DNA of 41,534 nucleotides from a virus: IMG/VR virus record IMGVR_UViG_3300046714_000198, positions 1 through 41,534 of that record. The stretch is one strand, 5' to 3'. Shown piece by piece: positions 1 to 41,534 of the stretch. Numbering within the stretch: the first letter of the stretch is position 1; every line of letters starts with the position of its first letter. Below the pieces are notes generated by a model, which made no database searches, was not told the DNA's origin, and worked only from the letters and a program-made list of their open reading frames with translations. Position numbers and translations under genes: made by a program.

Positions 1-489
1 GGACCAGTCCCGCATGACGTAAGCAGGATGGTAAGCAGGGATGACCTTGACAGGAACGTGCGTGCGGTCGGTCTGCAGCAGCGATCCGCGCCACGACTTG
101 ATCCCCCACTTTCCTGTCAGCGTCCAGAGCGCCACGTTGCCGAAGGCAACGATGACGTTCGGCTGCACCATCCCGATCTCCTGCCACAGCAGCTCCGCAC
201 CAGACTGGACGATCTGGCGCACATACTTGTCGCGCATGGGGACCATTTCAGGAGTAATGTCCTTCTTACTCTTCGCAATCCACAGCGAGATGTCGTTCTC
301 AGGCGGGCGCTCTCTGGCGACATTCGTGATGAAGCACTCGCTGCGCATGATGCCAGCCTCGTGCAGCATGGCGTCTAACGTCGATCCGGATGCTCCGACG
401 AAGGGAGCGCGCCGGAGCACCTCTTGCTCGCCGGGAGCTTCTCCCACCAGCATAATGCGTGCGGGGACTGGACCAGATGGTGGGACCAT
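1..489 (-). CDS. Uracil-DNA glycosylase domain, N-terminal part of a UDG-DNA polymerase fusion (cut by the left window edge)
   Basis: The minus strand from ATG at 489 stays open to base 1 and reads as a UDG-superfamily domain. It has motif A LVGEAPGEQE near residue 14, then PFVGASG, the beta-strand FITNVARERPP, VIVAFGN, and a closing motif HPAYVMRDWS. Family 4/5-type UDGs remove uracil from DNA. The iron-sulfur cysteines of family 4 are absent; only one Cys is seen. The start overlaps the stop of the upstream methyltransferase (TAATG), so translation is probably coupled. The last visible residues, HPAYVMRDWS, are also the first in-frame residues of the polymerase at the right window edge. I infer a single fusion of about 805 residues, like the UDG-polymerase of phage SPO1. 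The annotation is firm for the domain and inferential for the join. Confidence 0.85.
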   Translation of the reverse strand, partial: MVPPSGPVPARIMLVGEAPGEQEVLRRAPFVGASGSTLDAMLHEAGIMRSECFITNVARERPPENDISLWIAKSKKDITPEMVPMRDKYVRQIVQSGAELLWQEIGMVQPNVIVAFGNVALWTLTGKWGIKSWRGSLLQTDRTHVPVKVIPAYHPAYVMRDWS

Positions 490-1781
490 TAGGCCAGCCC
501 CTCTATCCGCTTGGCGGCGATTCCGTAATAGTTAGCTTCTCGCTCAATACCTGTAGCGAGACACCGAAGAGCGTGTGCAGCGCCGAAGATAGTTCCAGTC
601 CCAGCAAATGGGTCAAGCACTTTATCGCCGGCTCTAACTGATCGTTTGAGTAAGTCGGTGAAGAGGGAGACTGGCTTTTGAGCGCCATGGCCCAGGTTGT
701 CGTCCCCTTCTGTAAAGACAGTGTCAGGGTAAACTGCAGTGACTCGCTTGTCGCCTCTGTAAGCGTAGAGGATGATTTCGTAGCAGCGTCTTGGTCCATG
801 TTCGGGCAGAGGCAATCGCCCCCCTCCAGCTTTGATGTTAAGTAACGGTGTGCGGAAGACATTCCACTTCTGGCCGAACAGCTCCTTGAGCCAGCCAAAC
901 TGGTCAATGTCGCAGCACAGGTAGAGATGGGCGGCAGGCTTCGCGAGCCTGTCGAACCAGATGGCGGACGCTATCATCAGCTCCTGGAACGATTCCTCAC
1001 TGTCGCTGTACTCATGCGTTATTGTTGTAAGCTTTCCAGCAGCATCCCCAAAGCCATCAGCACCCATACCATAAGGAGGGTCAGTAAGTATAACGTCAAA
1101 GCTCGCAGGAGGCAGAGTAGCCATGACTTCAAGACAGTCTCCGTGAATCAGCTGGTGCGAGTGCTTGCCGAAGGTCAAGCCAACTGCCCGCGCGTGCAAC
1201 TCGTTGTCCGCTACCTGCTCTGCCCGCTCGATGATTTTGAAGGCTTCCTTGAGAGTCTTGGCCTTGACGACCTCTGGATTGTCAAGGTTCCTCGCGACGG
1301 CGAGCTGCTGCCGGACTCGGCTGTGAGCATCTCCGCCGACCTGACCAGTAACCTCTCGAGCTGTGTCAGCGACGGACTGAGCGGGATTCTGCAGGCGACG
1401 AAGCTCGTGAAGTCGTGCAACAGCGACAGCCTCTTCTTGGAAAGTAAGGTCGGCGCGGCGGATGTTCTCTTCGAGTTCAGCCTCAAACGCCGCGAGGGCG
1501 CTGAGCTCTCCAAGTGACACAACCGGGATAAGTCCTTCATCAACCTCACTATTGTCACACTTAAACGTTCCTCCAATTCCCCACAGGTCCTGGATTGCTC
1601 TGAGCCTTCGCTCTCCAGCAACGAGGGATGCTTTACCTTTTTCATCGTACCTCACTACTAAGGGTTGTAGAAGCCCGTGACTCCCGATACTGGTCATCAG
1701 CTCGGTCAGCTGCACAGGGTCGAACTCCCGCCGCTGGCGGTTGGTAGGAACGGATAACTCGCTTAGGGGTAGCAGTCGCAT
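489..1781 (-). CDS. ParB-like nuclease/partition domain fused to DNA methyltransferase
   Basis: This 430-residue protein has two domains. Residues 1-120 are a ParB N-terminal-like fold, with GLLQPLVVR near 36-44, the GERRLRA box at 56-62 and ENIRRADL at 105-112. Residues 200-430 are a DNA amino-methyltransferase, with the catalytic DPPY at 234-237 and the SAM-binding DPFAGTGT at 390-397. DPPY coming before the SAM motif indicates the beta class, which methylates adenine N6 or cytosine N4. Such fusions are known in phages and may protect phage DNA from restriction or regulate it; I cannot tell the target site. No cognate endonuclease is adjacent. It sits upstream of the UDG-polymerase gene with a TAATG overlap. 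A GAGG ribosome site lies about 9 bases before the ATG. Confidence 0.9.
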   Translation of the reverse strand: MRLLPLSELSVPTNRQRREFDPVQLTELMTSIGSHGLLQPLVVRYDEKGKASLVAGERRLRAIQDLWGIGGTFKCDNSEVDEGLIPVVSLGELSALAAFEAELEENIRRADLTFQEEAVAVARLHELRRLQNPAQSVADTAREVTGQVGGDAHSRVRQQLAVARNLDNPEVVKAKTLKEAFKIIERAEQVADNELHARAVGLTFGKHSHQLIHGDCLEVMATLPPASFDVILTDPPYGMGADGFGDAAGKLTTITHEYSDSEESFQELMIASAIWFDRLAKPAAHLYLCCDIDQFGWLKELFGQKWNVFRTPLLNIKAGGGRLPLPEHGPRRCYEIILYAYRGDKRVTAVYPDTVFTEGDDNLGHGAQKPVSLFTDLLKRSVRAGDKVLDPFAGTGTIFGAAHALRCLATGIEREANYYGIAAKRIEGLA

Positions 1782-6025: not shown

Positions 6026-6234
6026 GGCATATTGTCGAATTCAGCCAGCAGCTCGTCCCCGCTCTTCACGGGGGCCTTCGCTCGCTTCGCCGCGCCCGCT
6101 ACCGCCGCTGCACTACGCGACTGGCGCAGGAATCGAAGGGCTTGTCGCGCCTCCTCGTCCGTCAGCGTCTTGTTGATCGCCTTCTGCCGCCAGAGGTCCA
6201 CCTGCACCGCCGTCGGTTGGTCTTCGATGTTCAT
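6022..6234 (-). CDS. Small phage protein with C-terminal GDELLAEFD tail
   Basis: The product is 70 residues. The N-terminal part (VDLWRQKAINKTLTDEEAR) resembles a widespread small phage family of unknown function. The tail SGDELLAEFDNMP resembles the acidic C-terminal motif of the proteins at 7831-8457 and 12453-12980, suggesting a shared binding partner. It overlaps the next gene by four bases. Confidence 0.7.
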   Translation of the reverse strand: MNIEDQPTAVQVDLWRQKAINKTLTDEEARQALRFLRQSRSAAAVAGAAKRAKAPVKSGDELLAEFDNMP

Positions 6235-6418
6235 TGCTTTGCTCCTTGATGTGATCCAAGTGGCGACGGAATGCCGCCTCCGCGAACTCGCTCAGCCGTC
6301 CCTTGGGGATGCCGCCGTGAGCGTCACTGTACAGGACGAGATGGACTTCGCCCACCAGTGGCGCTGGCAGCATCAGGTGGAGATCGACTGGGCGCTCTAG
6401 CTTGCGTGGGGCTGGCAC
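6113..6418 (-). CDS. Conserved-type phage hypothetical protein
   Basis: The start is a GTG at 6418, just after the stop of the upstream gene. The N-terminal 55 residues (RKLERPVDLHLMLPAPLV, later IPKGRLSEF) look like a small phage family I have seen with no assigned function. The last 40 residues overlap the following gene in another frame and are low-complexity, so the functional part is probably the N-terminal half. Confidence 0.65.
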   Translation of the reverse strand: MPAPRKLERPVDLHLMLPAPLVGEVHLVLYSDAHGGIPKGRLSEFAEAAFRRHLDHIKEQSNEHRRPTDGGAGGPLAAEGDQQDADGRGGATSPSIPAPVA

Positions 6419-6619
6419 TTAGTCCTCCAATCTGCAGTTTGTCTGCTTCACGTGGACAGTGTCGCCCACCTTGTAGGCCCCAGAGGCTTCCAGTAATTCC
6501 ACTGTCAAGCCACCTGTCTTGCGGGAGCGTCGTATGACCATGCCAAGCACATTCTGCAGTGGTCCACTTGTAACACGCACCCTTGGGAAATCCCACTTGA
6601 ACGCTCCTCGCTTAGTCAT
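6419..6619 (-). CDS. Hypothetical protein, 66 residues
   Basis: This is a basic N-terminus followed by a beta-rich segment (GLTVELLEASGAYKVGDTV). It overlaps the gene upstream by four bases. No known motif. Confidence 0.6.
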   Translation of the reverse strand: MTKRGAFKWDFPRVRVTSGPLQNVLGMVIRRSRKTGGLTVELLEASGAYKVGDTVHVKQTNCRLED

Positions 6620-7158
6620 CGCTCGGCCTGTCCAGTCGCTACGTCAATCGCGATTACGCACTCCACGCAGTCGTAGCACAGCTCGACTAGGCCCTGGTCG
6701 TGGAACTCGGTGCGCTCCGGCAACTGCTCAACGGGCTTGCCCGCTGTCAGCCTCCTCGCGTTGGGATCGCTGGCGTGCTTCTGCTCAGTCATCCACCCCA
6801 TGAACAGCCGGTGCTTGGCTGCACACATCGCGCAGGTTTGCGTATAGAAGAGAGCGACCGCGCCAACGGTGAGCCAGACTCGGCCTTCCTCCAGCCGCTT
6901 GATTTCCGCGACTAGCTGAGCACGCTCGCTGTCCGCACTCTCGTGGGTCGAGCGGCTGATGGAAGCGAGACGCTTGCGCGCCTGCTTGAGCCTCTTCTCC
7001 TCTGCCGTCGCCGCGGTCGCTTCTGCTAGCAAGTCGTCGAGGTCGCTGAAGTCATCGGCATCCTCAACGGCGTCTTGCTCGTCGTCCTGCGCCGCGTCAG
7101 CGAGCAGGTCAGCTTCCATATCGAAGCTGTCTAGTATGGTGTCGCCGCTGGTTGTCAT
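6616..7158 (-). CDS. Acidic hypothetical protein with possible Zn-binding Cys pairs
   Basis: The product is 180 residues. Residues 1-45 are strongly acidic (AQDDEQDAVEDADDFSDLDD). A basic coiled-coil-like helix follows, then a hydrophobic stretch leading into CAMC and, near the C-terminus, CYDC. Two CxxC pairs suggest a bound zinc. Its start overlaps the upstream stop. Function unknown. Confidence 0.65.
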   Translation of the reverse strand: MTTSGDTILDSFDMEADLLADAAQDDEQDAVEDADDFSDLDDLLAEATAATAEEKRLKQARKRLASISRSTHESADSERAQLVAEIKRLEEGRVWLTVGAVALFYTQTCAMCAAKHRLFMGWMTEQKHASDPNARRLTAGKPVEQLPERTEFHDQGLVELCYDCVECVIAIDVATGQAER

Positions 7159-7394
7159 TGCCTTGTCCCCTTCGCCTTAATCTCCATCATCTTCATGACA
7201 GCCGGCTTGAGGGAGTCGAGCAACTCGCAGGGATCGCCAATGTCGCCCTCGCTCAAGGCGTTGACCAGCTCGAAACTAAAGGCAGCTATCGCTATGTCTC
7301 TGGGATAGTGCGCTGCCTTCTCGACCATGAAAGCGTTGATGGCTAGTTGCAGCTCCTCAAACGCAGCGAAGTCTTTCTCGTTTGTTGGGTCCAT
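7155..7394 (-). CDS. Hypothetical protein, 79 residues, first gene after the 7.43 kb repeat element
   Basis: This is a helical small protein (FEELQLAINAFMVEKAAHY). It follows a gap of 106 bases that holds a repeat element and a hairpin, so it may begin a transcript. Function unknown. Confidence 0.6.
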   Translation of the reverse strand: MDPTNEKDFAAFEELQLAINAFMVEKAAHYPRDIAIAAFSFELVNALSEGDIGDPCELLDSLKPAVMKMMEIKAKGTRQ

Positions 7395-7430
7395 CTGGGT
7401 TCTCCGTCATCTGACTATCCGGGCGGATGC

Positions 7431-7461
7431 CCGAACGTATTATGATACCGTAATGCGAACG
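7431..7461 (+). repeat. Intergenic two-part repeat [C/G]CGAACG-N17-[C/G]CGAACG, copy 1
   Basis: Half-sites CCGAACG (7431-7437) and GCGAACG (7455-7461) are 24 bases apart start to start. The sequence before the second half is CCGTAAT, as in copy 2. It lies between two minus-strand genes, 37 bases upstream of the gene starting at 7394. Confidence 0.8.
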
Positions 7462-7472
7462 TACCGTCTAGC

Positions 7473-7830: not shown

Positions 7831-8457
7831 TTACGCCGGTACTGCAGCTTCGTCTTGCGGCAGAGCGTCGAAGCCGGCAAGCAGCTCGTCGGTATCCACC
7901 TTCGTGCCCTTGGCAAGCTTTTCCGCTTCCAAGCGATCGACGATGCTCTTCAGCGTCACGCCTTGCGCGTTCGGCTTCAGGGCACCCCGCAGCGCCATCT
8001 TCTGCGCCTGCGTCTTGTCCGACAGGAACTGCTTGACGGACTCAACCGACCTGCCGTTGTACTCGACGAGGGCCTTGACGAGGATCGAAGTCCCCGACAT
8101 TCCGCCAGCCTCGCGCGAAACGGTCCACTCGCCCTTGTCCAAGCGACCGACCAGCTGGTCGATAGCCAGGACCATATCGTCCACGTCAGTCTCGCCCGCG
8201 GTTTCGTCGCCCAGCTTCTGCTCGGCCCCATGCAGGGCGTACTTCTCGACCAGCGTGGGCGCGAGCGTGACGACGCGGACTTCGCCGTTGATGAAGTCCA
8301 GCCTGACCTTCAGGCTGCCATCGTCGGCCTTGAACGAGGACTTCTGCATCTTCCGCTTGCCCGGGAAGTCCACCACGGTGCCGTCTTGCATCTTGATGCT
8401 GTTGACGACAGTTGCGGGTTTCTTTGAGACTGCGGTTCCTGCGGTTACTTCCGACAT
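7831..8457 (-). CDS. Early protein, paralogue of the product of 12453-12980
   Basis: The start at 8457 is set by AAGGAG 7 bases upstream, giving 208 residues. The pattern LHGAEQKLGD, then GEWTVSREAGG, then LVKALVEY, then MALRGALK, and a tail DTDELLAGFD recurs in the same order in the protein at 12453-12980. I recall similar phage proteins of unknown function. It has its own likely sigma70-type promoter (8551-8580), which suggests high or separate expression. A nucleoid-type or replication-accessory role is possible but unproven. Confidence 0.8.
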   Translation of the reverse strand: MSEVTAGTAVSKKPATVVNSIKMQDGTVVDFPGKRKMQKSSFKADDGSLKVRLDFINGEVRVVTLAPTLVEKYALHGAEQKLGDETAGETDVDDMVLAIDQLVGRLDKGEWTVSREAGGMSGTSILVKALVEYNGRSVESVKQFLSDKTQAQKMALRGALKPNAQGVTLKSIVDRLEAEKLAKGTKVDTDELLAGFDALPQDEAAVPA

Positions 8458-11878: not shown

Positions 11879-11952
11879 ATCGGTCCTCCCATTGACCCCC
11901 CAATCAGTCCCCCGATCAGGTACGAGGTGTGAACTTTTGCCCAAACCCCCAT
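11875..11952 (-). CDS. Possible 25-residue leader peptide coupled to the 11878 gene
   Basis: ATG 11952 reads through KVHTSYLIGGLIGG and stops at TGA overlapping the next ATG. The plus strand of the right inverted-repeat arm encodes the related KVHTRYLIGVLIGG in the opposite direction. Between the two, Leu and Ile codons differ at third positions only and one 12-base in-frame insertion is present, which is suggestive of coding. No strong ribosome site is seen. Confidence 0.35.
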   Translation of the reverse strand: MGVWAKVHTSYLIGGLIGGSMGGPI

Positions 11953-12173
11953 TCTCGCCTATTCTCTTCTCCAGTTATCTGCCTCTTCCAGTTATATCCT
12001 CATTCCACTGTAATCGTTATACGAACGAAAAAAAAATTATAAGGAAGAGATGACGGAAAGGAAAATAGGCGATTATGACTGCGCGAAAGAATAGGGGAAT
12101 GGGGGGTTCCGGTCCAAAGTTCACACCCGGTACCTCATAGGGGTACTCATCGGGGGACTGATAGGGGACCGAT
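11879..12173. repeat. Large imperfect inverted repeat, candidate replication origin core
   Basis: The left arm (11879-11966) and right arm (12089-12173) are imperfect reverse complements. Shared blocks are ATCGGTCC, ATCAGTCCCCCGAT and GTGTGAACTTT, read from the left. An inner perfect pair is CGCCTATT (11956-11963) and AATAGGCG (12064-12071). The 122-base centre is AT-rich with a run of nine A, a TATAAT on the minus strand (12041-12036), and two TCCAGTTAT copies 17 bases apart (11970, 11987). No gene is convincing in 11953-12410. Confidence 0.6.
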
Positions 12174-12452: not shown

Positions 12453-12980
12453 CTACTGCTCGTCGGCCTCCGTCGAATCGAAGGTTTCGAGCAACTCGTC
12501 TCCGTCCACTCCCGTCGCCCGACCGCGTTCGGCTCTGATTTCGTCCAAATACGGTTTCAGGTGCTCGGATTTGTTGCGGAGCGCGGTCTTTTGCTTTTCC
12601 GTCAACGTGGCCAGATGCGCCGCAATCGACTCGCGAGTCTTCGTGGCATCTTTCACCGCGTAGAATCGGACCAACGCTTCGAGGAGCATACCGCCCTCGC
12701 CGCCTTCCCGCTCGATGTTCCAACGATTGTCGCGCAACGCTTCGATGACATTCTCCATCGCACCGCGTTTCGCTTCGATCGTCGCCGGTTTCCCAGTTTC
12801 CGGGTCAACCGACATTGCCGCGGCGTCCGCGATCTTTTGCGAGAAACCGTGTAACATCGCTTTGTCCCGGATCTCGGGCGAAATCTCCGCCGCGTCGAAT
12901 GAGATGGAAACTCCATCCCGGAACATCCACGATATAACTTCGCCCACTATCGAGCGTTTCATAACGCTATTGGATTTCAT
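12453..12980 (-). CDS. Stand-alone early gene, paralogue of the product of 7831-8457
   Basis: The start at 12980 is set by AAGGA 5 bases upstream, giving 175 residues. The order of conserved pieces (AMLHGFSQKIAD, NRWNIEREGGEGG, LLEALVRFY, TALRNK, GDELLETFD) follows that of the 7831-8457 protein. Only scattered identity remains, so the duplication is old or the copies came separately. It has its own promoter (13058-13085) and a strong terminator, and it is the first gene left of the divergent control region. This placement is typical of an early regulator or host-takeover protein, but the function is unknown. Confidence 0.8.
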   Translation of the reverse strand: MKSNSVMKRSIVGEVISWMFRDGVSISFDAAEISPEIRDKAMLHGFSQKIADAAAMSVDPETGKPATIEAKRGAMENVIEALRDNRWNIEREGGEGGMLLEALVRFYAVKDATKTRESIAAHLATLTEKQKTALRNKSEHLKPYLDEIRAERGRATGVDGDELLETFDSTEADEQ

Positions 12981-13085: not shown

Positions 13086-13260
13086 GCTATTTTCGCTTGA
13101 GCCGACGAACGGTCATGTAGTGTACAAACTTTTTTAGGAGTCCCTTAACCACGTCAGTAGTAGGGTCTCTTAGCCCCCCATTCAATCGGCAGGGGGGAGA
13201 CCACCCTCTGGCATGACTCTTGCGCGGATACGTCAGTCCTACGGGGAAGCTCCACCATAT

Positions 13261-13291
13261 CCGAACGAACTTCAATTCCGTAATCCGAACG
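13261..13291 (+). repeat. Intergenic two-part CGAACG repeat, copy 2
   Basis: CCGAACG at 13261-13267 and at 13285-13291, 24 bases apart. CCGTAAT precedes the second half, as in copy 1. It lies between the two divergent promoters. Confidence 0.85.
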
Positions 13292-13296
13292 AACAT

Positions 13297-13419: not shown

Positions 13420-13878
13420 ATGAGCGAATTCCTGACGCACGCGATCGAGAAGGTCAGCTACACGCACGACGCGATGATTGACCTGCTGATCGCGAACCCC
13501 GAGATCAGCCAGGGGGAGATTTCCGACTACTTCGGCTACACGCCCAGCTGGGTGAGCCGGGTGATTCGCAGCGACGCCTTCCGCGAGCGCCTTGCCGCAC
13601 GCAAGGGGGAGATAGTCGACCCCCAGATTCTGGAGAGCGTCGAGCTGCAGTTCGAGGTTTTAGTGAAGCGGAGCCTCGAGATACTGCAAGATAAGCTGCG
13701 AATTGAGAATGCTCCCAGCGCCGACCTCGCGCTCAAGACCGCGGAGCTGGGGGCGAGGGCACTCGGATATGGGGCGAAGACAGGGGTGACGATCAACGCC
13801 CAGCAGTTCGTCGTCGCCATGCCCCCGAAGGCGAAGGATAGTCACGAGTGGCTGGAGAGTAGGGTGGTGAACGGCTAG
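13420..13878 (+). CDS. Terminase small subunit-like HTH protein
   Basis: The product is 152 residues, with a helix-turn-helix at about 30-52 (ISQGEISDYFGYTPSWVSRV). A helical oligomerisation region follows. GAGG lies upstream of the ATG. Small terminases bind the packaging site and feed DNA to the large subunit, and the next gene is the large terminase. The fold and position fit, though the sequence family is variable. Confidence 0.8.
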   Translation: MSEFLTHAIEKVSYTHDAMIDLLIANPEISQGEISDYFGYTPSWVSRVIRSDAFRERLAARKGEIVDPQILESVELQFEVLVKRSLEILQDKLRIENAPSADLALKTAELGARALGYGAKTGVTINAQQFVVAMPPKAKDSHEWLESRVVNG

Positions 13879-19221: not shown

Positions 19222-20193
19222 ATGCCCTCCCCAAATGCAACCTTTACGGAACTGGTCAGCACGACGTTCCGCAGGCACGGGAAGAAGTTCATCGACAACG
19301 TGTCGAAGAACAACGCCCTGCTGGCGTACGTCACTGCGAACGGCCAGATCGACACAGTCGCGGGTGGACTGTCGCTCGTCACGCCGCTCGATTATGCTGA
19401 GAACTCGACGTACCAACGGTACAGCGGGTACGACCTGCTGAACGTCAGCCAGTCCGATGTGCTGTCGAGCGCAGAGTATCAGTGGCGCCAGATCGCGATC
19501 AATGTCGTCGCGTCAGGTCTCGAAATGCGGATCAACAAAGGCGACACGCAGATCATCGCGCTCGTCAAGTCCCGTATCAAGAACGCCATCCGCACCTTCA
19601 AGAACAACTTCTCGGTCGACCTGTACAGCGACGGCACGCTGACGAACCAGATCAACGGCTTGCAGGCGCTGGTGAGCGACACCGGCACGGGAGTCGTCGG
19701 CGGGATCGACAGCAACGCTTTCCCGTTCTGGCGCAACAAGGTGCAGAGCGCGGCCGCACCCTTGCAAGGCGGTGGCGCGATCGTGCCAAGCGGCACGACC
19801 ATCGAGTCGCTGATGTTGCCACTCTACCTCGCCCAGACTCGGGCGGACGATCAGCCGAACTTGATCGTCATGGCGAACGACTACTACACCTTCTTCGAGC
19901 AGTCGCAGACCTCGATCAAGCGCTACACCGACACGCAAAAGGGTGCAGCCGGGTTTGTGTCGCTGAAGTACAAGAAGGCCGATGTGATCTTCGACGGCGG
20001 CAGCGGCATCCCCAACAGCCACGCCTACTTCCTCAACACCGACTACATCAGCATCAAGGTGCACGAAGATGCGAACATGACGGTGCTGGACGAGGCGCGC
20101 CCCTACAACCAGGACGCCGCGGTGATCCCGGTCCTCTGGATGGGGAACCTGCTGCTCAGCAACCGTTCCCTGCAAGGGGTGATGAAGGCATAG
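19222..20193 (+). CDS. Major capsid protein
   Basis: It has 323 residues, with AGGAG upstream. The segments YAENSTYQRYSGYDLLN, then LEMRINKG, then YSDGT, GLQALVSDT and GGIDSNAFPFWRN follow a phage capsid family I recognise. It builds the icosahedral shell. It follows the scaffold-like gene and is followed by a repeat element, which may separate its expression from downstream genes. Confidence 0.92.
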   Translation: MPSPNATFTELVSTTFRRHGKKFIDNVSKNNALLAYVTANGQIDTVAGGLSLVTPLDYAENSTYQRYSGYDLLNVSQSDVLSSAEYQWRQIAINVVASGLEMRINKGDTQIIALVKSRIKNAIRTFKNNFSVDLYSDGTLTNQINGLQALVSDTGTGVVGGIDSNAFPFWRNKVQSAAAPLQGGGAIVPSGTTIESLMLPLYLAQTRADDQPNLIVMANDYYTFFEQSQTSIKRYTDTQKGAAGFVSLKYKKADVIFDGGSGIPNSHAYFLNTDYISIKVHEDANMTVLDEARPYNQDAAVIPVLWMGNLLLSNRSLQGVMKA

Positions 20194-20194
20194 T

Positions 20195-20225
20195 CCGAAC
20201 GGGATTCGGGGACGAAATCCGAACG
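20195..20225 (+). repeat. Intergenic two-part CGAACG repeat, copy 3
   Basis: CCGAACG at 20195-20201 and 20219-20225, with CGAAAT before the second half. It starts one base after the capsid stop codon and ends 25 bases before the next start. Confidence 0.85.
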
Positions 20226-20250
20226 GATGATTACCAGTTAGGAGAATTGA

Positions 20251-20953: not shown

Positions 20954-20988
20954 TCCGGGGGAGAATGTCAGCTTCCCCGGATCTTTTT
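20954..20988 (+). terminator. Rho-independent terminator after the head genes
   Basis: TCCGGGGGAG (20954-20963) pairs with CTTCCCCGGA (20972-20981) with one G-T pair, followed by TC and TTTTT. It should lower transcription of downstream tail genes relative to the capsid genes. Confidence 0.85.
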
Positions 20989-21012: not shown

Positions 21013-21711
21013 ATGCCAGCCGTTATGCAAGATCGGCCGCCGTTGGTGCGGTTCGAAGTGAGAGCGGTGGAGAAGCGAGATGCAGTCGGCACCCGCACGT
21101 TCATCGACACCGACTTCGCGCTGATCACGCCTCAGGGTAGCAAGGAGGTCGTCGAGAAAGTGGTGGAGGAGTGGTTCGCCCAGCTCGACAAGTCGGTTGA
21201 GGATGGGCGCTTTAACCCCCTGTGGCTTGACGCCTTTCGCAGCTATCATGCGAAGTGGAAGAAGGGGGAGGAGGTGCCCCTGAACGGCTTTGCCATCAAG
21301 AACTGGCCCAGCGCGAGTCCCGCGGAAGTGCGCATCCTGCTCAGCAATGGGATCCTGACGGTGGAGGATCTGGCCGCGGCGAACGAGCAGATGAAGATGA
21401 GCATTGGCATGGGGGCTGTCAGCCTGATTCAGCGCGCCAAGGACTTTCTGGAAGCGAAGAACGACCAGGGGCCGCTAGTGGCGCGGCTGGACGCGATGCA
21501 GTCTACGCTCACCAGGATCGAGTTCGAGAACAGGGAGTTGCGCGACGAGAACTCCCGGCTGAATGCTGCACTCCAGGTCCGCGAGAGGGGGAATATCGGT
21601 CCTGCGACACCTCCCGTGAGCTTGGAGGAGCGGCTCGCGGAGGCGCAGTCAAAGGGTCCGGACGTTCGCGAGCTGGTAGACGCGACGATTGACGAAGCAC
21701 TGGGAGCGTAA
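21013..21711 (+). CDS. Virion-associated conserved-type protein
   Basis: ATG 21013 has AGGAG 6 bases upstream, giving 232 residues. The N-terminal segment FIDTDFALITPQGSKEVVEK resembles a conserved phage protein found next to capsid genes. The C-terminal half is a long coiled coil (LDAMQSTLTRIEFENRELRD). Its role is unknown; a minor head or assembly protein is likely. Confidence 0.65.
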   Translation: MPAVMQDRPPLVRFEVRAVEKRDAVGTRTFIDTDFALITPQGSKEVVEKVVEEWFAQLDKSVEDGRFNPLWLDAFRSYHAKWKKGEEVPLNGFAIKNWPSASPAEVRILLSNGILTVEDLAAANEQMKMSIGMGAVSLIQRAKDFLEAKNDQGPLVARLDAMQSTLTRIEFENRELRDENSRLNAALQVRERGNIGPATPPVSLEERLAEAQSKGPDVRELVDATIDEALGA

Positions 21712-26221: not shown

Positions 26222-26961
26222 TGTATAGCGAGTACTTCGAGCGGCACAGCAAGGTCGCCCTGCAATTCAGTGGGGGGAAGGATAGCTGCGTGCTGTTGCA
26301 TCTGTTGGAGCCGTATCTGGACCAGCTTACTGTTGTCTGGGCGAACAGCGGCGACGCCGCGAAGGAGACGCTGGACCAGATGGCTCGGGTGAGAGATCTG
26401 GTGCCGCACTTCCTCGAAGTCAAGTCGGATCAGCCAAAGCAGATTGACCAGTTTGGGTATCCGACTGACATTATGAGCATCTGGGACTCCATGCTCGGGA
26501 GACAGCTGGACGAAACCCGAACGTACAAGCTCCAACCTGCCATTTCGTGTTGCTGGGAGAACCTCTTCATCCCCCTCTACGACGCGATGAAGGAGGGGGG
26601 CTTTACCCTGGTGATCCGGGGACAGAGAGATGCTGAAGCGAAGAAGGCCCCGATCCGGAGCGGCGAGTCGGAGCACGGAATCGAGTACTGGTTCCCGCTC
26701 GAGGACTGGACGGACGAGAAGCTCTGGAAGTACATCACCGACGCGAAGATCGAACTGCCCACCAACTACGGCGTCTTCGACTCGTCCATGGACTGCCTGC
26801 GGTGCACAGCGTACTTGGAGGAGAACCAAGGAAAGCTGGGGTACCTGAAGCAATACTATCCTGCTGCGGCGGCAGAAGTGGCGATGCGTCTGCGGTACAT
26901 CCGCAGCTCCGTCCGCGCCGAGCTGAAGCACATTGAGGAGGCGCTGGAAGACTATGCCTAA
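26221..26961 (+). CDS. PAPS/APS reductase-family PP-loop enzyme with Fe-S cysteines
   Basis: GTG 26218 or ATG 26221 is the start; GGAGG lies upstream. It has about 246 residues. The PP-loop SGGKDS lies near 18-23 and RGQRDAEAKK near 134-143. Cys pairs CC (111-112) and CxxC (193-196) are about 80 residues apart, the 4Fe-4S pattern of assimilatory APS reductases. Family members reduce adenylyl sulfate or adenylate substrates, including in DNA sulfur modification (DndC). The substrate here is unknown. It overlaps its neighbours and lies in the virion module. Confidence 0.85.
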   Translation: MYSEYFERHSKVALQFSGGKDSCVLLHLLEPYLDQLTVVWANSGDAAKETLDQMARVRDLVPHFLEVKSDQPKQIDQFGYPTDIMSIWDSMLGRQLDETRTYKLQPAISCCWENLFIPLYDAMKEGGFTLVIRGQRDAEAKKAPIRSGESEHGIEYWFPLEDWTDEKLWKYITDAKIELPTNYGVFDSSMDCLRCTAYLEENQGKLGYLKQYYPAAAAEVAMRLRYIRSSVRAELKHIEEALEDYA

Positions 26962-28311: not shown

Positions 28312-30021
28312 ATGGATACCCTCACTGTCGGCACTGAAGAAGCGCCCAAGACCTTTGATATAACGCTGCCTGATGGCAAGACCGTTATACACAACGTTCC
28401 TGTGGGGACTCCCAGGGAAGAGGTCATTGCCCGCGCGACAGCGATGGGGTGGAAGCCCGGTCCGACCACCTTTCAGAAGGGTGTGGGGATTGCAGAGGCG
28501 GGAGCGACGGGGGCACTGAAAGGGGCGATTTCGTCGACGATAGGCCTGCCGGGGGATTTGGCTGACCTTGGCCAGCTCGGCGCCAACAAGCTGGGCTTCG
28601 ATGTTCCGGAGCCGACAGGGGAGGGCTTCTTCCCCCGCAGCCACGATATTTACGCCAAGCTACCGGAATTGCACAAGCCAGCTGACCTCACCGAGCAGGT
28701 TGCGGAGGGGGCAGGTGCTGGCGTTGCGTCGGTGGTAAATCCCTTCGCACCGTTTGGCAAGGGGAAGCTGCTGACCAAGGGTCTTGCCCTCGCAGGAGGT
28801 GTTGGCGGGGGTGGAGGAGAGCTGGCGGCGAACTGGCTACCGAATCATCCTGATGCAGCGAGAGCCGCTGCGTTCCTTGCCGCCCTCTCCCCTGCCGCCT
28901 ACACCGGGTTCCGCAAGCCAAATGTAGTGAGGTCCGTGCAGGATTACGTTAACGAGCTGGGGCCGGAGGGACTGCAAGCTGCGGATACAGCGAGGAAGGA
29001 GGCGTCGACTACGCTGAACGTGCCCACGCTCCTGTCACAGGGCACCCCAGGTAAGACCGCGCTGTCGTCGATCGTGGACGAGCTGAAGAAAACGCCGATG
29101 GGAACAGACATCCGACGGGTTCTCGACGTGCAGCCGAAGGCGGGGCAGCAGAAAATTGATGATCTGGTGGCCGCGCTGAGCAATAAGCCGGTGGGCCAGC
29201 AGACTGCGAACGAGATTGCGGCGGCGGGGAAGGTAGCGACGAGGGTGGCAGACCCACTGGATGCGCTGTTCGGTGGGGGCGAGAAGGCAGGCTTCAACGT
29301 GACGCCCAAGACGGACGCGACGGCGGTGTCATTTCCTGAGAATATGACCAAGTCGGGCATCGGCAACTACTCGACGATGGGACAGGTGCTGAGTGACTCC
29401 ACCAAGTACGGCCCCGCGGACGTTGCGAGGGTGGCTGATGACCTCAATAAGGTTGACCCGACGGCGTTCCCCTCGCTGGTCAAGCACAAGTTCTCTGCGG
29501 CTAGTGGTGAGGCACAGAAGGCGGTAGAGGGACGAGTTCCTCCTACTGCCCCGGCGCAGTTCGCGGAGGATGTGGCGGGGGCAGCAAATACGCCGAAACG
29601 AGCGAACTTCGAGGCGACAATGAAGGGAGTGGCGCGGGCGCATGGACTGCCGGAGGAAGAAGCGGCGAAGGGGGCGGTGAAGTTTGTGGAGGCCCTGCAG
29701 CTAATCGGCCGGGATCAAGGTGGGAGTGGGCTGAGCGGAATGCAAAGGGAATCCGGAACGAACATCTGGTCCAAGATCCTGAAGTCCCTTAGCTTCACGC
29801 CTGCGCAGAGCACGGCCACTACGATTCAGCAGGGCGTTCAGAGGAACACCTATAGGAAGCTGGCGGAAGCCATGACTTCCGAGGATGGAGTAAAGACGCT
29901 CATCAAGATCGCGCGCTGGAGCCATCCGGAACAGGCCGCCATTACCACTGCTCGAGGTCTCATCGCTACCAGCGCGGATGTAGCGGCCCAGAGTGGTGAT
30001 ACGCCAGTGGTACAACCGTAG
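28312..30021 (+). CDS. Putative large ejection/internal virion protein
   Basis: It has 569 residues. The N-terminal segment LPDGKTVIHNVPVGTPREEV occurs at the start of many phage internal virion proteins. The rest is helical with Gly/Ala-rich membrane-like stretches (ALAGGVGGGGGELA). It is likely ejected with DNA to form the envelope channel; no lytic-transglycosylase motif is seen. Confidence 0.65.
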   Translation: MDTLTVGTEEAPKTFDITLPDGKTVIHNVPVGTPREEVIARATAMGWKPGPTTFQKGVGIAEAGATGALKGAISSTIGLPGDLADLGQLGANKLGFDVPEPTGEGFFPRSHDIYAKLPELHKPADLTEQVAEGAGAGVASVVNPFAPFGKGKLLTKGLALAGGVGGGGGELAANWLPNHPDAARAAAFLAALSPAAYTGFRKPNVVRSVQDYVNELGPEGLQAADTARKEASTTLNVPTLLSQGTPGKTALSSIVDELKKTPMGTDIRRVLDVQPKAGQQKIDDLVAALSNKPVGQQTANEIAAAGKVATRVADPLDALFGGGEKAGFNVTPKTDATAVSFPENMTKSGIGNYSTMGQVLSDSTKYGPADVARVADDLNKVDPTAFPSLVKHKFSAASGEAQKAVEGRVPPTAPAQFAEDVAGAANTPKRANFEATMKGVARAHGLPEEEAAKGAVKFVEALQLIGRDQGGSGLSGMQRESGTNIWSKILKSLSFTPAQSTATTIQQGVQRNTYRKLAEAMTSEDGVKTLIKIARWSHPEQAAITTARGLIATSADVAAQSGDTPVVQP

Positions 30022-30022
30022 T

Positions 30023-30053
30023 GCGAACGGAATTCACGGTCGAAACCCGAACG
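30023..30053 (+). repeat. Intergenic two-part CGAACG repeat, copy 4
   Basis: GCGAACG (30023-30029) and CCGAACG (30047-30053) are 24 bases apart, with CGAAAC before the second half. It begins one base after the stop and ends 10 bases before the next ATG, so it overlaps the translation start region. Confidence 0.85.
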
Positions 30054-30063
30054 GACAATACCC

Positions 30064-31032
30064 ATGCCTTATAACGGTGCAGGTGTCTACACAGTCCCCG
30101 TCGTGATGGTGGCTGATGCGGCGAGTGGCGTCAAGATCCTCGCGAGTCGGCAGGATACGAACTGGAACGATGTGGCGGCGGCGCTGAGCCTCTGCTTGAC
30201 TCGCGACTCGCAGGGGAAGCCCTCCCAGGACTGGGACGCGAACGCGCACAAGGTCATCAACCTCGCGCCGGCGACAGCTCCTGCCGACGCGGTGCCGCTG
30301 TCACAGATCAACCTGTTGGCGAGCGACTGGATATTTGAGACGAACAACGTCATTATTCAGTCAAGCAACCAATTCAAGGTGCTAGGCGTTGACAGGACGG
30401 CGACGTATCAGCCTGGCCGCCGCGTGAGGATCAACCACAACTCAGGTGGAACGACCACCTACGGTACAGTGTTCTCGAGCAGCTTCGCTACTGACACGCT
30501 GGTGTCCGTCACGCTCGACACAGGTATCCTGTCGCCAACCATCACTGGCGTCTACTACGGCATCATCGCGCCTGGCAATCGGTCCTCGCTCCCGACCAAG
30601 TCGGCGGTGCTAGTGACGATGACAGGGGGAGGTGCTCTCACTTCTGGCGCCATCTACATTCTCGGCGCGGCAGCTCCGTTCGCTACTACCTCTGTCGTCG
30701 CGGATGTGCTCGGCGAGATGGCCGCGGGGGTGTTCACTGCGAAGCAGCCGGGGCTGTACGCTGTGGACTGCCAGATCAATACCCTGCGGAATGGCTCGAC
30801 GGTTACGGCGGACGGTCAGTTCGGCGTCTACGTCAACGGAGCGGCTGTGTACGGTCCAGGGGCCTTCCTCTCCAACTACTCCTCGATTCAGCAGTCCACC
30901 GGCACCTTCAATACCTTGGTCTACATGAACGCAGGAGACCAGTTAACCGTCCGGACACTCAACCCGATTGGGTTTACTGGTGGTCCACAGTCGGTCGGCA
31001 ATTGCTTCATACGTGTCATGAGGGTCGGCTGA
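30064..31032 (+). CDS. Tail fibre/appendage protein with C1q-like C-terminus
   Basis: It has 322 residues. The N-terminus (YTVPVVMVADAASGVKI, then NDVAAALSLCLTRD) matches the anchor of many podovirus tail fibres. The C-terminal half, beta-rich with GLYAVDCQINTLRNG and VYMNAGDQLTVR, resembles C1q/TNF-like trimeric domains. It likely anchors fibres to the tail and presents a receptor-binding end. Confidence 0.75.
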   Translation: MPYNGAGVYTVPVVMVADAASGVKILASRQDTNWNDVAAALSLCLTRDSQGKPSQDWDANAHKVINLAPATAPADAVPLSQINLLASDWIFETNNVIIQSSNQFKVLGVDRTATYQPGRRVRINHNSGGTTTYGTVFSSSFATDTLVSVTLDTGILSPTITGVYYGIIAPGNRSSLPTKSAVLVTMTGGGALTSGAIYILGAAAPFATTSVVADVLGEMAAGVFTAKQPGLYAVDCQINTLRNGSTVTADGQFGVYVNGAAVYGPGAFLSNYSSIQQSTGTFNTLVYMNAGDQLTVRTLNPIGFTGGPQSVGNCFIRVMRVG

Positions 31033-36584: not shown

Positions 36585-36751
36585 CACTAGGACTGGTATT
36601 CTGGATTCTGATGCTGTTCTGGCTGGTATTCGGCTTCTGGCAGTACCGGCTGGCTCCCGCCAACTATCCACTGGTTGGAGGAAACGTGCTGCTGTTCGTG
36701 CTGCTGTTGCTATTGGGCTGGCACGAGTTCGGCGCGCCAATCCACGGCTGA
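36581..36751 (+). CDS. Two-helix small membrane protein, holin candidate
   Basis: The ATG overlaps the previous stop (ATGA). It has 56 residues. Two hydrophobic helices (LVFWILMLFWLVFGFW and VLLFVLLLLLGW) are joined by a short loop, and the ends are short. Size and topology fit a small holin, which would form pores late in infection. No endolysin was recognised nearby, so the role is tentative. Confidence 0.6.
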   Translation: MTLGLVFWILMLFWLVFGFWQYRLAPANYPLVGGNVLLFVLLLLLGWHEFGAPIHG

Positions 36752-39565: not shown

Positions 39566-41534
39566 CTACGCGCAATCACCCCAGGAGAGGGGACTGGTTT
39601 TGATCCGGAAGGGGATCACCAGTGGATCGTCGTAGGGGACGACGATGCTGCCCGCTATCTCGCGCATGGCGGTGAGCTGGGTGTCGCGCAGGTGCGTCGG
39701 CATTTGGCCGGCCAGCGAATCGTGCACCTGCAACAGCACCTGCGTCTCCGGCAGCTTCTCGTAGATACTCAGCCAGATCATGTTGATGTAGTGGGCGACT
39801 GTTGACTGTGGCCCCCACGCGATGGCTTCCGGCACGATCGACTCGATCCTGTCGAAGAAGTAAGCGCGGTAACCAAAGCGATTCTCGACGTAGCGGCGGC
39901 GGTTAAGCTGCTCGACGATCGAGTCGTTTCTCTTCTTGATGCCGGGGTGAACTTGGAACCACCGCGCCTGAAACTTCTCTACTTCGTGGACAGTGAGGCC
40001 GAAGTTCAGCGCAACTGTCCTTGCGCCGCCTCCATAGTTGGTGGCGTGGACGACTTGGCGGGTGTTCTGCCTCTGCTTGTAGTAGCGCGCCTTTACGTCC
40101 CTGTAGTTGGGATGCGACTCCAGCATCTCGTCGTCGCTAATGGGCAAGTTGTAGACGTCACGCGCGGAGTGAAGGTGCATATCCACGCCCGCACGAAGAG
40201 CCTTCTTCATCCCTTCATCCTCCGCCTCCCACACGACTACCTGGAGATCGGCGCGATCCAAGTCGCCATCGAAGAAGGTGTACCCTGGGTCGGGGACGAA
40301 GAGCTTCTTCACGTTGGGCAGATCCAGCGAGTCCTCTTCCTCCTGTCCCCCTTCGGGAATGTTCATCAGGTTCATGCCGGAGTCGAAAGCGTTGGCTGAT
40401 GACGAGAGGCGGTAGGTCTTGGTGCCGGCGATGTTGTAGCTACAGCGGATGCGCTGGTCGCTGTCTAGTGGCGCGCCGACGAAGGTGGAGAAGAACACGC
40501 GCAGGGATCTGTGTTCGGTGATGCGGTCGATCAGGGGGCGGAGCAGTGGCTCTCGCGCCTTCAGCCGTTGCAGCGCCTCATCGTCCAGCGTCGGCGCATC
40601 GCGCTTGCCCTTCTTCCGACTGAATATCACCTTCTGCTGCAAATCGCCGTAGAAGAGCTGCTGCATCTGCTTCGGCGATTGAGGGTTCAGCTGGTGCCCT
40701 AGGATGTCGATGAACCACTGCTCTCGCTTGGCAATCTCATCAGATAACTCAAGAGCAAAAGCCGACCTTCGTTTGAGGTCAACCCTAACTCCCCGCACCA
40801 TTGCCTGAAGAACGGGCCAGAACATACGCTGCTGAAACTGGTACTGTGGTCGCAGCCCAAGCTTGTCCACGTTTGCGTTAATGACTTCATCGCATTCTTT
40901 AGTTCTAACGCAATCTGTGCAGTTGTAGACCCAGAGCTGCTCTTCTCCAGTGTTCCTGTCCCACGTTTTCCCGTCGTCTTTCCAATAGACGTACTCTTCG
41001 CAATACATGGAGCTAAGGTAATCAAGACCCTTTGGGAGGAGGGCGAATACTGAATGATGGCCGAGCATGGTATCTCGGTCAAAGGCTGGAGCAAAGCCCC
41101 AATGTCTAATGAAGTACTGAGTATCGTAGATAAAATTCTGCCCGATGACTCTGGCGTTAGCATGACAGAGAATTCTTTGGAATCCTTGGATGATTGCGAA
41201 TTCTTCATCTTCACTCCAGTAACCTTCCGGCCTTTCGACGCACATGAAAGGGACGCAGATGGCGCGCAGCTTGTCGAGCGAGATGCCAACGCAGGCGATG
41301 TGGCCGCCGCGCGTTTCAATGTCGCAGCTGATGCCAGTGGGGCCTTGGTCGAGTCGCGCTCTGACCTCGGCGAAAAATTGCATAACTTGAGGGAAGTTCG
41401 GACGGATTACGAAATCGTAGTTCGTTCGAACTATCACCCCTGATACCGCCTGTTTCCTGACCCGGCGCAGGTCCTGAATGGTGATAGCTCGCGAGGACCA
41501 GTCCCGCATGACGTAAGCGGGGTGATAGGCAGGT
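39566..41534 (-). CDS. Family A DNA polymerase with 3'-5' exonuclease, C-terminal part of the UDG fusion (cut by the right window edge)
   Basis: The frame is open to the window end, and the upstream residues PAYHPAYV before the ATG at 41509 are the UDG end motif, so that ATG is internal. The exonuclease motifs are CDIETRG, GQNFIYD and YNCTD. The polymerase motifs are A (DGDLDRADLQ), B (RQVVHATNYGGG) and C (QVHDSL, with Ser in place of the usual Glu). It copies the phage genome. With the left-edge part it makes a fusion of about 805 residues that could remove uracil from the template while copying. Confidence 0.92.
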   Translation of the reverse strand, partial: PAYHPAYVMRDWSSRAITIQDLRRVRKQAVSGVIVRTNYDFVIRPNFPQVMQFFAEVRARLDQGPTGISCDIETRGGHIACVGISLDKLRAICVPFMCVERPEGYWSEDEEFAIIQGFQRILCHANARVIGQNFIYDTQYFIRHWGFAPAFDRDTMLGHHSVFALLPKGLDYLSSMYCEEYVYWKDDGKTWDRNTGEEQLWVYNCTDCVRTKECDEVINANVDKLGLRPQYQFQQRMFWPVLQAMVRGVRVDLKRRSAFALELSDEIAKREQWFIDILGHQLNPQSPKQMQQLFYGDLQQKVIFSRKKGKRDAPTLDDEALQRLKAREPLLRPLIDRITEHRSLRVFFSTFVGAPLDSDQRIRCSYNIAGTKTYRLSSSANAFDSGMNLMNIPEGGQEEEDSLDLPNVKKLFVPDPGYTFFDGDLDRADLQVVVWEAEDEGMKKALRAGVDMHLHSARDVYNLPISDDEMLESHPNYRDVKARYYKQRQNTRQVVHATNYGGGARTVALNFGLTVHEVEKFQARWFQVHPGIKKRNDSIVEQLNRRRYVENRFGYRAYFFDRIESIVPEAIAWGPQSTVAHYINMIWLSIYEKLPETQVLLQVHDSLAGQMPTHLRDTQLTAMREIAGSIVVPYDDPLVIPFRIKTSPLSWGDCA

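Follow-up and report, generated by a model that had tools for sequence, protein, structure and literature searches.

Dispersed palindromic sites with phage-specific arms in a group of uncultured tailed phages: a candidate DNA operator and its putative ribbon-helix-helix-like binder

We analysed the IMG/VR virus record IMGVR_UViG_3300046714_000198 over its full 41,534 nucleotides (hereafter the window), a contig of 41.5 kb from an uncultured tailed phage with a rightward and a leftward unit, and followed up a repeated CGAACG element. The rightward unit carries g21 and the large terminase, portal, capsid and tail genes, and the leftward unit carries the early and replication genes, including those for the DNA polymerase, a Sak4-like protein, an exonuclease and a ParB-domain methyltransferase. 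The features needed below are as follows (RHH, ribbon-helix-helix; HTH, helix-turn-helix).

7427-7466, no strand assigned: palindromic site 1, in the gap upstream of the minus-strand genes g9, g8 and the RHH-like gene, overlapping a sigma-70-like promoter
13257-13296, no strand assigned: palindromic site 2, in a divergent region, ahead of g21 and the large terminase gene
20191-20230, no strand assigned: palindromic site 3, right after the major capsid stop codon, the next start codon lying 26 bp on
30019-30058, no strand assigned: palindromic site 4, between genes 28312-30021 and 30064-31032
41394-41433, no strand assigned: palindromic site 5, within the coding sequence for DNA polymerase (IVRTNYDFVIRPNF); its offset there is shared by relatives
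7442-7470, minus strand: sigma-70-like promoter TAGACG-N17-TATCAT (-35 at 7470-7465, -10 at 7447-7442), with 9 of 12 consensus bases, a consensus match only
6113-6418, minus strand: RHH-like protein of 101 amino acids, candidate binder of the five sites, with a GTG start at 6418 and a GGAGG ribosome site upstream
6616-7158, minus strand: g8, in the RHH operon between site 1 and the RHH gene
7155-7394, minus strand: g9, first gene downstream of site 1 on this strand
13420-13878, rightward unit: g21, encoding an HTH, small-terminase-like protein
19222-20193, rightward unit: major capsid gene
39566-41509, minus strand: open reading frame of the family A DNA polymerase, containing site 5; its 5' part is 1-489 on the minus strand, across the contig ends

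The pattern S-CGAACG-N17-S-CGAACG was found exactly at 7431, 13261, 20195 and 30023, always on the plus strand, where dinucleotide shuffles led us to expect 0.01 occurrences, and CG[A/T]AA[T/C] precedes the second half in all four copies, as an earlier sequence-only reading had noted. Its remark that two copies directly follow stop codons is also correct (those at 20195 and 30023 begin 1-2 bases past the TAG of the capsid gene and of gene 28312-30021, respectively). Its description of all copies as lying in gaps in one orientation fits these four but not a fifth. A weight matrix built from them gave one extra strong match, at 41429 on the minus strand (score 35.4 versus 44-50 for the four), which lies inside the minus-strand polymerase coding sequence, and the next-best match, with reverse-strand readings of the known sites excluded, scored only 11.7. 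The copy at 7431 is upstream of minus-strand genes, and its plus orientation is not the direction of transcription. A lone half-site, GGACGAAACCCGAACG, was also seen inside a tail gene (26508-26528), the second arm being absent.

The conserved block extends over about 40 bp and is an imperfect palindrome, arm-[A/G]TTAY-N6-RTAA[C/T]-arm, in which the pair of CGAACG elements 24 bp apart forms the outer arm peculiar to the window phage, CCGAACGG. The core is TAY-N6-RTA (TTC-N6-GAA in some window copies), and the outer boxes are CCGNNCGG. Because these boxes are themselves palindromic, with centres 12 bp on each side of the middle, they look like a direct repeat with a 24-bp period. We considered tandem dimers, three or four of them at 8-bp or 12-bp steps, but the inner part does not fit the outer-box pattern, and we claim no stoichiometry.

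A scan of the sequence collection with the exact motif spacing gave informative matches only from a near-identical contig, the others fitting chance. The comparison was made with the dyad itself, using 17 related contigs and MW202489 (18 related phages, or 19 genomes with the window). MW202489.1 is the nearest annotated relative, most of the shared genes having about 30-69% protein identity. Sites were called by genome-specific dyad matrices, which were seeded and iterated, and a few register artefacts shifted by 24 bp (e.g. window 20169) were excluded by a score limit. Palindromes were found in all 18 related phages, mostly 5-13 per genome, with scores of about 23-48 versus shuffle maxima of about 0-14. 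They occupy conserved places, namely the gap 3' of the capsid gene, the region upstream of g21 (terminase operon), the g10/g8 gap heading the early operon and a point at constant offset within the polymerase gene; positions before the homologues of g7 and of gene 30064 are also frequent. At the matching gaps of MW202489 (after the capsid gene and before the 30064 homologue), a different-looking repeat, ACCGCCGGGTTTAC-N6-GTAAACCGCCGG, aligns with the window element as CCGNNSG boxes 24 bp apart with a common core. Relatives thus lack the pattern at the same gaps, which the sequence-only reading had named as a point against it, only as far as the letters CGAACG are concerned; a homologous palindrome with other arm letters occupies these gaps.

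We also collected 80 loci by a capsid-alignment scan. Most of them have a palindrome right after the capsid stop codon, with the core RTTAY-N6-RTAAY and complementary arms of other sequence. A strict universal-core test after the capsid stop was positive in 45 of 79 loci versus 4 of 1580 shuffled segments, although forms as diverged as the window's own escape this test. The core is common to the phages, and the arms are private to each phage and alike among its own copies (e.g. CCACACA in G008, CCGGTCGG in G007 and G012, and the CCGGGG type in G015 and G018). Three more distant phages, with polymerases about 48% identical, have the same architecture with other boxes (GTGAACAC, TGACGTCA and GCGCG). 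The copy in the polymerase gene, at about codon 31, keeps the phage's own arms even when the protein changes (KCVDY in G008 instead of RPDY). Such tracking of the phage's own code within a coding sequence is hard to explain without selection on the DNA. We found no account of such sites among 5.39 million openly available papers.

The sequence-only reading had stated that no known promoter matches the element, to which a caveat must be attached, since the copy at 7431 is overlapped on the minus strand by the sigma-70-like promoter listed above, aimed at g9, g8 and the RHH gene. This overlap recurs among the relatives: 9 of 18 sites heading the RHH operon have a sigma-70-like promoter on the early-sense strand with its -10 box in the core, versus 1.8 expected when the flanks were replaced. 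At the other early sites the overlap was seen in 7 of 31 (1.1 expected), and five of these promoters match at least 10 of the 12 consensus bases (0.0 expected); the best of all overlapping promoters is TTGACA-N17-TATAAT in G005. No overlap was detected at the 55 late sites (capsid-gap, g21 and other).

The gene at 6113-6418 belongs to the operon headed by the copy at 7431. Its RHH-like family (about 65-100 amino acids) is present in 19/19 genomes and shows a basic N-terminus, an alternating strand-like stretch and two predicted helices, and a palindromic site lies 0.05-1.4 kb upstream of the gene in 18 of the 19. RHH proteins are known to touch DNA through alternate beta-strand residues and often to repress their own genes (PMC3325190, PMC5569661); in AmrZ, the DNA-facing residues of the strand are Lys18, Val20 and Arg22 (PMC3325190). 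After correction for phylogeny, differences at strand residues 1, 3 and 5 of the family correlated with motif distance (19 genomes; partial r = 0.44, permutation P = 2e-4, with lineages treated as exchangeable), and the remainder of the protein did not (-0.09). Among comparable local triads drawn from all universal families, just 0.13% did as well (1.5% without one deep clade). A second scan yielded 52 loci; because short loci can give false families, only those with at least three sites were used, and 17 such non-redundant loci were added to give 36 phages. In this larger set the partial r was 0.445 (P = 3e-4), and strand positions 1 and 3 ranked first and third of about 50 columns. The added loci repeated specific pairs, EKS strands occurring with CCGGTCGG (L242 and L252) and ENS strands with CC-GGG arms. 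Judged by this correlation, the 6113-6418 protein appears to be the best-supported binder. A ribbon-helix-helix fold is tentatively proposed for it, the sole confident extended-helix-helix model being that of its homologue L126 (predicted local distance difference test score, pLDDT, 85; extended at 10-18, helices at 19-29 and 41-61).

Taken together, these sequence comparisons make it reasonably probable that the element is a palindromic DNA operator of about 40 bp, most likely bound by the phage's own RHH-like protein, which would repress the early operons. Because the site overlaps a sigma-70-like promoter at early operon heads, a protein on site 1 would obstruct host RNA polymerase and thereby repress the protein's own operon as well as other early operons. 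The copies that lack a promoter, which follow the capsid gene, precede the terminase operon and gene 30064 or lie within the polymerase gene, would most simply be roadblocks to elongating polymerase; alternatively, they may serve as sites that coordinate late expression.

Several observations weigh against this interpretation. Nothing explains repressor sites in late gaps that have no promoters, and the eight boxes of the four gap sites all read CGAACG (not CGTTCG) on one strand, a polarity that a symmetric site does not require. The RHH-like family was chosen by eye from alignments before the correlation was tested, and the P values are partly post hoc. The assignment of the family is also uncertain: Pfam RHH_6 matched the window protein with E = 0.0086 and 17.1 bits, short of the cut-off of 27; only 3 of 27 family members gave a weak match to an RHH model; hhalign against Arc, Mnt, CopG, NikR and FitA gave no profile match (probability 1.5); PDB sequence and fold searches gave nothing useful, Foldseek being unmatched; and the structure model of the window protein itself was poor (pLDDT 58). 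Finally, g10 independently correlates with motif distance.

This last point bears on the most viable alternative, in which the same DNA operator is bound by another phage protein, above all one of two paralogues that flank the sites in most genomes:

7831-8457, minus strand: g10, paralogue of g20
12453-12926, minus strand: g20, paralogue of g10

Both adjoin sites and are present in 18-19 of the 19 genomes, and whole-protein distances of g10 correlated with motif distances after correction for phylogeny (partial 0.39), remaining significant beside the RHH triad. However, neither protein has a recognised DNA-binding domain or a match in Pfam or PHROGs, g10 adjoins the RHH operon, so that linkage can yield the same correlation, and no short g10 segment was shown to carry specificity. 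We regard a binder of this kind as unlikely. The product of g21, a clear HTH protein, was also considered as a binder and rejected, there being no correlation with motif distance (partial 0.01).

Somewhat less likely still is a structural or replicative role, in which the sites would be dispersed anchors for genome compaction, segregation or replication and the promoter overlap a side effect. The genome-wide spread of the copies, with one in coding sequence, and the universal presence of a ParB-domain methyltransferase gene in the group would be in keeping with such anchors, but the sites concentrate where genes and operons begin, their overlap with early promoters exceeds expectation, and no partition system (ParA or a centromere array) was recognised.

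We further asked whether the palindrome acts as RNA, that is, as a transcript hairpin guiding processing, stability or termination, the sequence-only reading having offered a transcript processing signal, besides a regulator site and a phage-specific promoter, as a possible function. Pairing arms do occur at the 3' end of the capsid gene in many phages, and the capsid-gap copies alone showed a borderline excess of G-U (29 versus 16 A-C). This lean was not upheld in the larger set: on the sense strand of 96 oriented gap sites, the non-Watson-Crick positions comprised 59 G-U, 54 A-C and 217 others, near the chance shares. With no preference for the G-U pairs that RNA tolerates, we take the element to be a double-stranded DNA site rather than an RNA hairpin. 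In addition, the arms are conserved in sequence within a phage beyond mere pairing, the site overlaps the promoter at early operons, an Rfam search of the window gave no match, and no T-run follows the site as in an intrinsic terminator. An RNA function is accordingly very improbable, and of the three suggested functions the regulator site is the one favoured. The third, a promoter that a phage-specific RNA polymerase or sigma factor would use at each site, is equally hard to credit: the sites often lie 20-60 bp ahead of a start codon, but the block has symmetry and no orientation, the polymerase coding sequence contains one copy, information content is restricted to -20 to +20 around the centre with nothing outside at a fixed distance, the capsid gaps leave little room for a leader, and PF00940 was unmatched in 18 genomes, although its control matched nowhere and absence is not proven.

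Returning to repression by an RHH-like protein, the nearest parallel is the stoperators of Cluster A mycobacteriophages, where one repressor (gp71 in L5) acts at numerous genome-wide copies lying in short spaces between genes, with one operator on an early promoter, the others promoterless, and a consensus that varies between phages (PMC9283540, PMC5712189). The present sites are similarly spread over short intergenic regions (5-13 copies per genome), combine an operator on an early promoter with promoterless sites and differ in consensus between phages, with a binder that would likewise be a repressor. The bound repressor of Cluster A phages stops elongating polymerase, as the promoterless copies here may do. 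In contrast, the Cluster A sites are asymmetric, 13 bp long, oriented with transcription and recognised by a monomeric HTH repressor, whereas the present sites are symmetric, about 40 bp long, with a CGAACG polarity that does not follow transcription, and have an RHH-like candidate binder. Cluster A phages are temperate, whereas here no integrase was found and one copy is inside a gene. Neither integrase nor resolvase was detected in 18 records (PF00589 and PF00239 unmatched, controls matched), though contigs may be incomplete; the phages of this group look lytic, and lysogenic silencing is therefore not a likely purpose of the sites.

Arc and Mnt of phage P22 and MetJ read short palindromic boxes with alternate beta-strand residues and regulate their own synthesis. 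The reading proposed here resembles these, and also AmrZ (PMC3325190), in both respects; these proteins, however, control one or a few promoters rather than 5-13 dispersed phage sites, and the sequence similarity of the 6113-6418 protein is too weak to assign it to any of them. Among archaeal viruses, the RHH protein SvtR of SIRV1 binds several promoters, its own and that of a structural gene among them (PMC5569661). SvtR, AvtR and F55 recognise imperfect inverted repeats, as proposed here (PMC5569661), but they work with archaeal hosts and promoters and at fewer sites, and no conserved syntenic set with lineage-private arms has been shown for them.

If our interpretation is right, these sites would be a second, independently evolved, dispersed stoperator-like control in phages, found beyond temperate mycobacteriophages and probably relying on another DNA-binding fold. 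We put forward, more tentatively, a genome-wide regulon of apparently lytic phages in which one RHH-like protein would use operators at early promoters and, in late gaps and within the polymerase gene, elongation stops that lack a promoter, the polymerase protein sequence being bent to keep the site, and in which repressor and operators would change their code together, giving each phage a private regulatory language, mutually insulated from the others. The many lineages with distinct pairs of arms and contact residues would then be a natural data set for an RHH-type recognition code, and would allow the joint change in specificity of a regulator and several sites, one held in essential coding sequence, to be followed. 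They would also provide a handle for annotating small genes without assigned function in a large group of uncultured phages.

Some further features of these genomes were recorded. A near-identical 39-base repeat lies at the contig ends (1-39 and 41495-41533, 90% identity); given this repeat and the polymerase frame running across the ends, the record probably represents a circularly permuted genome whose join carries a strain variant. The ParB-like domain at 489-1781 (minus strand) is fused to a DNA methyltransferase, and this gene is present in 19/19 genomes. A hairpin with a T-run resembling an intrinsic terminator lies at 20954-20981, 3' of the gene next after the capsid gene, and similar hairpins occur at the equivalent gap of MW202489 and L006. 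The gene gap 11897-12156 contains an imperfect inverted repeat around a poly-A tract (arms of 82 bases, 72% complementary). Sigma-54-like -24/-12 matches (TGGCAY-N5-TTGC) were found in the divergent region between g20 and g21 (window 13209-13223, plus strand; L006 934; G012 21313-21421, four in tandem; G016 33622); strict matches numbered 10 over 20 sequences versus 1.7 expected, most relatives having none and the direction not being constant. In MW202489.1, the label 'class D beta-lactamase OXA-58' on a 59-amino-acid open reading frame (39992-40171) looks spurious, and a small open reading frame at 36591-36701 overlaps a palindromic site.
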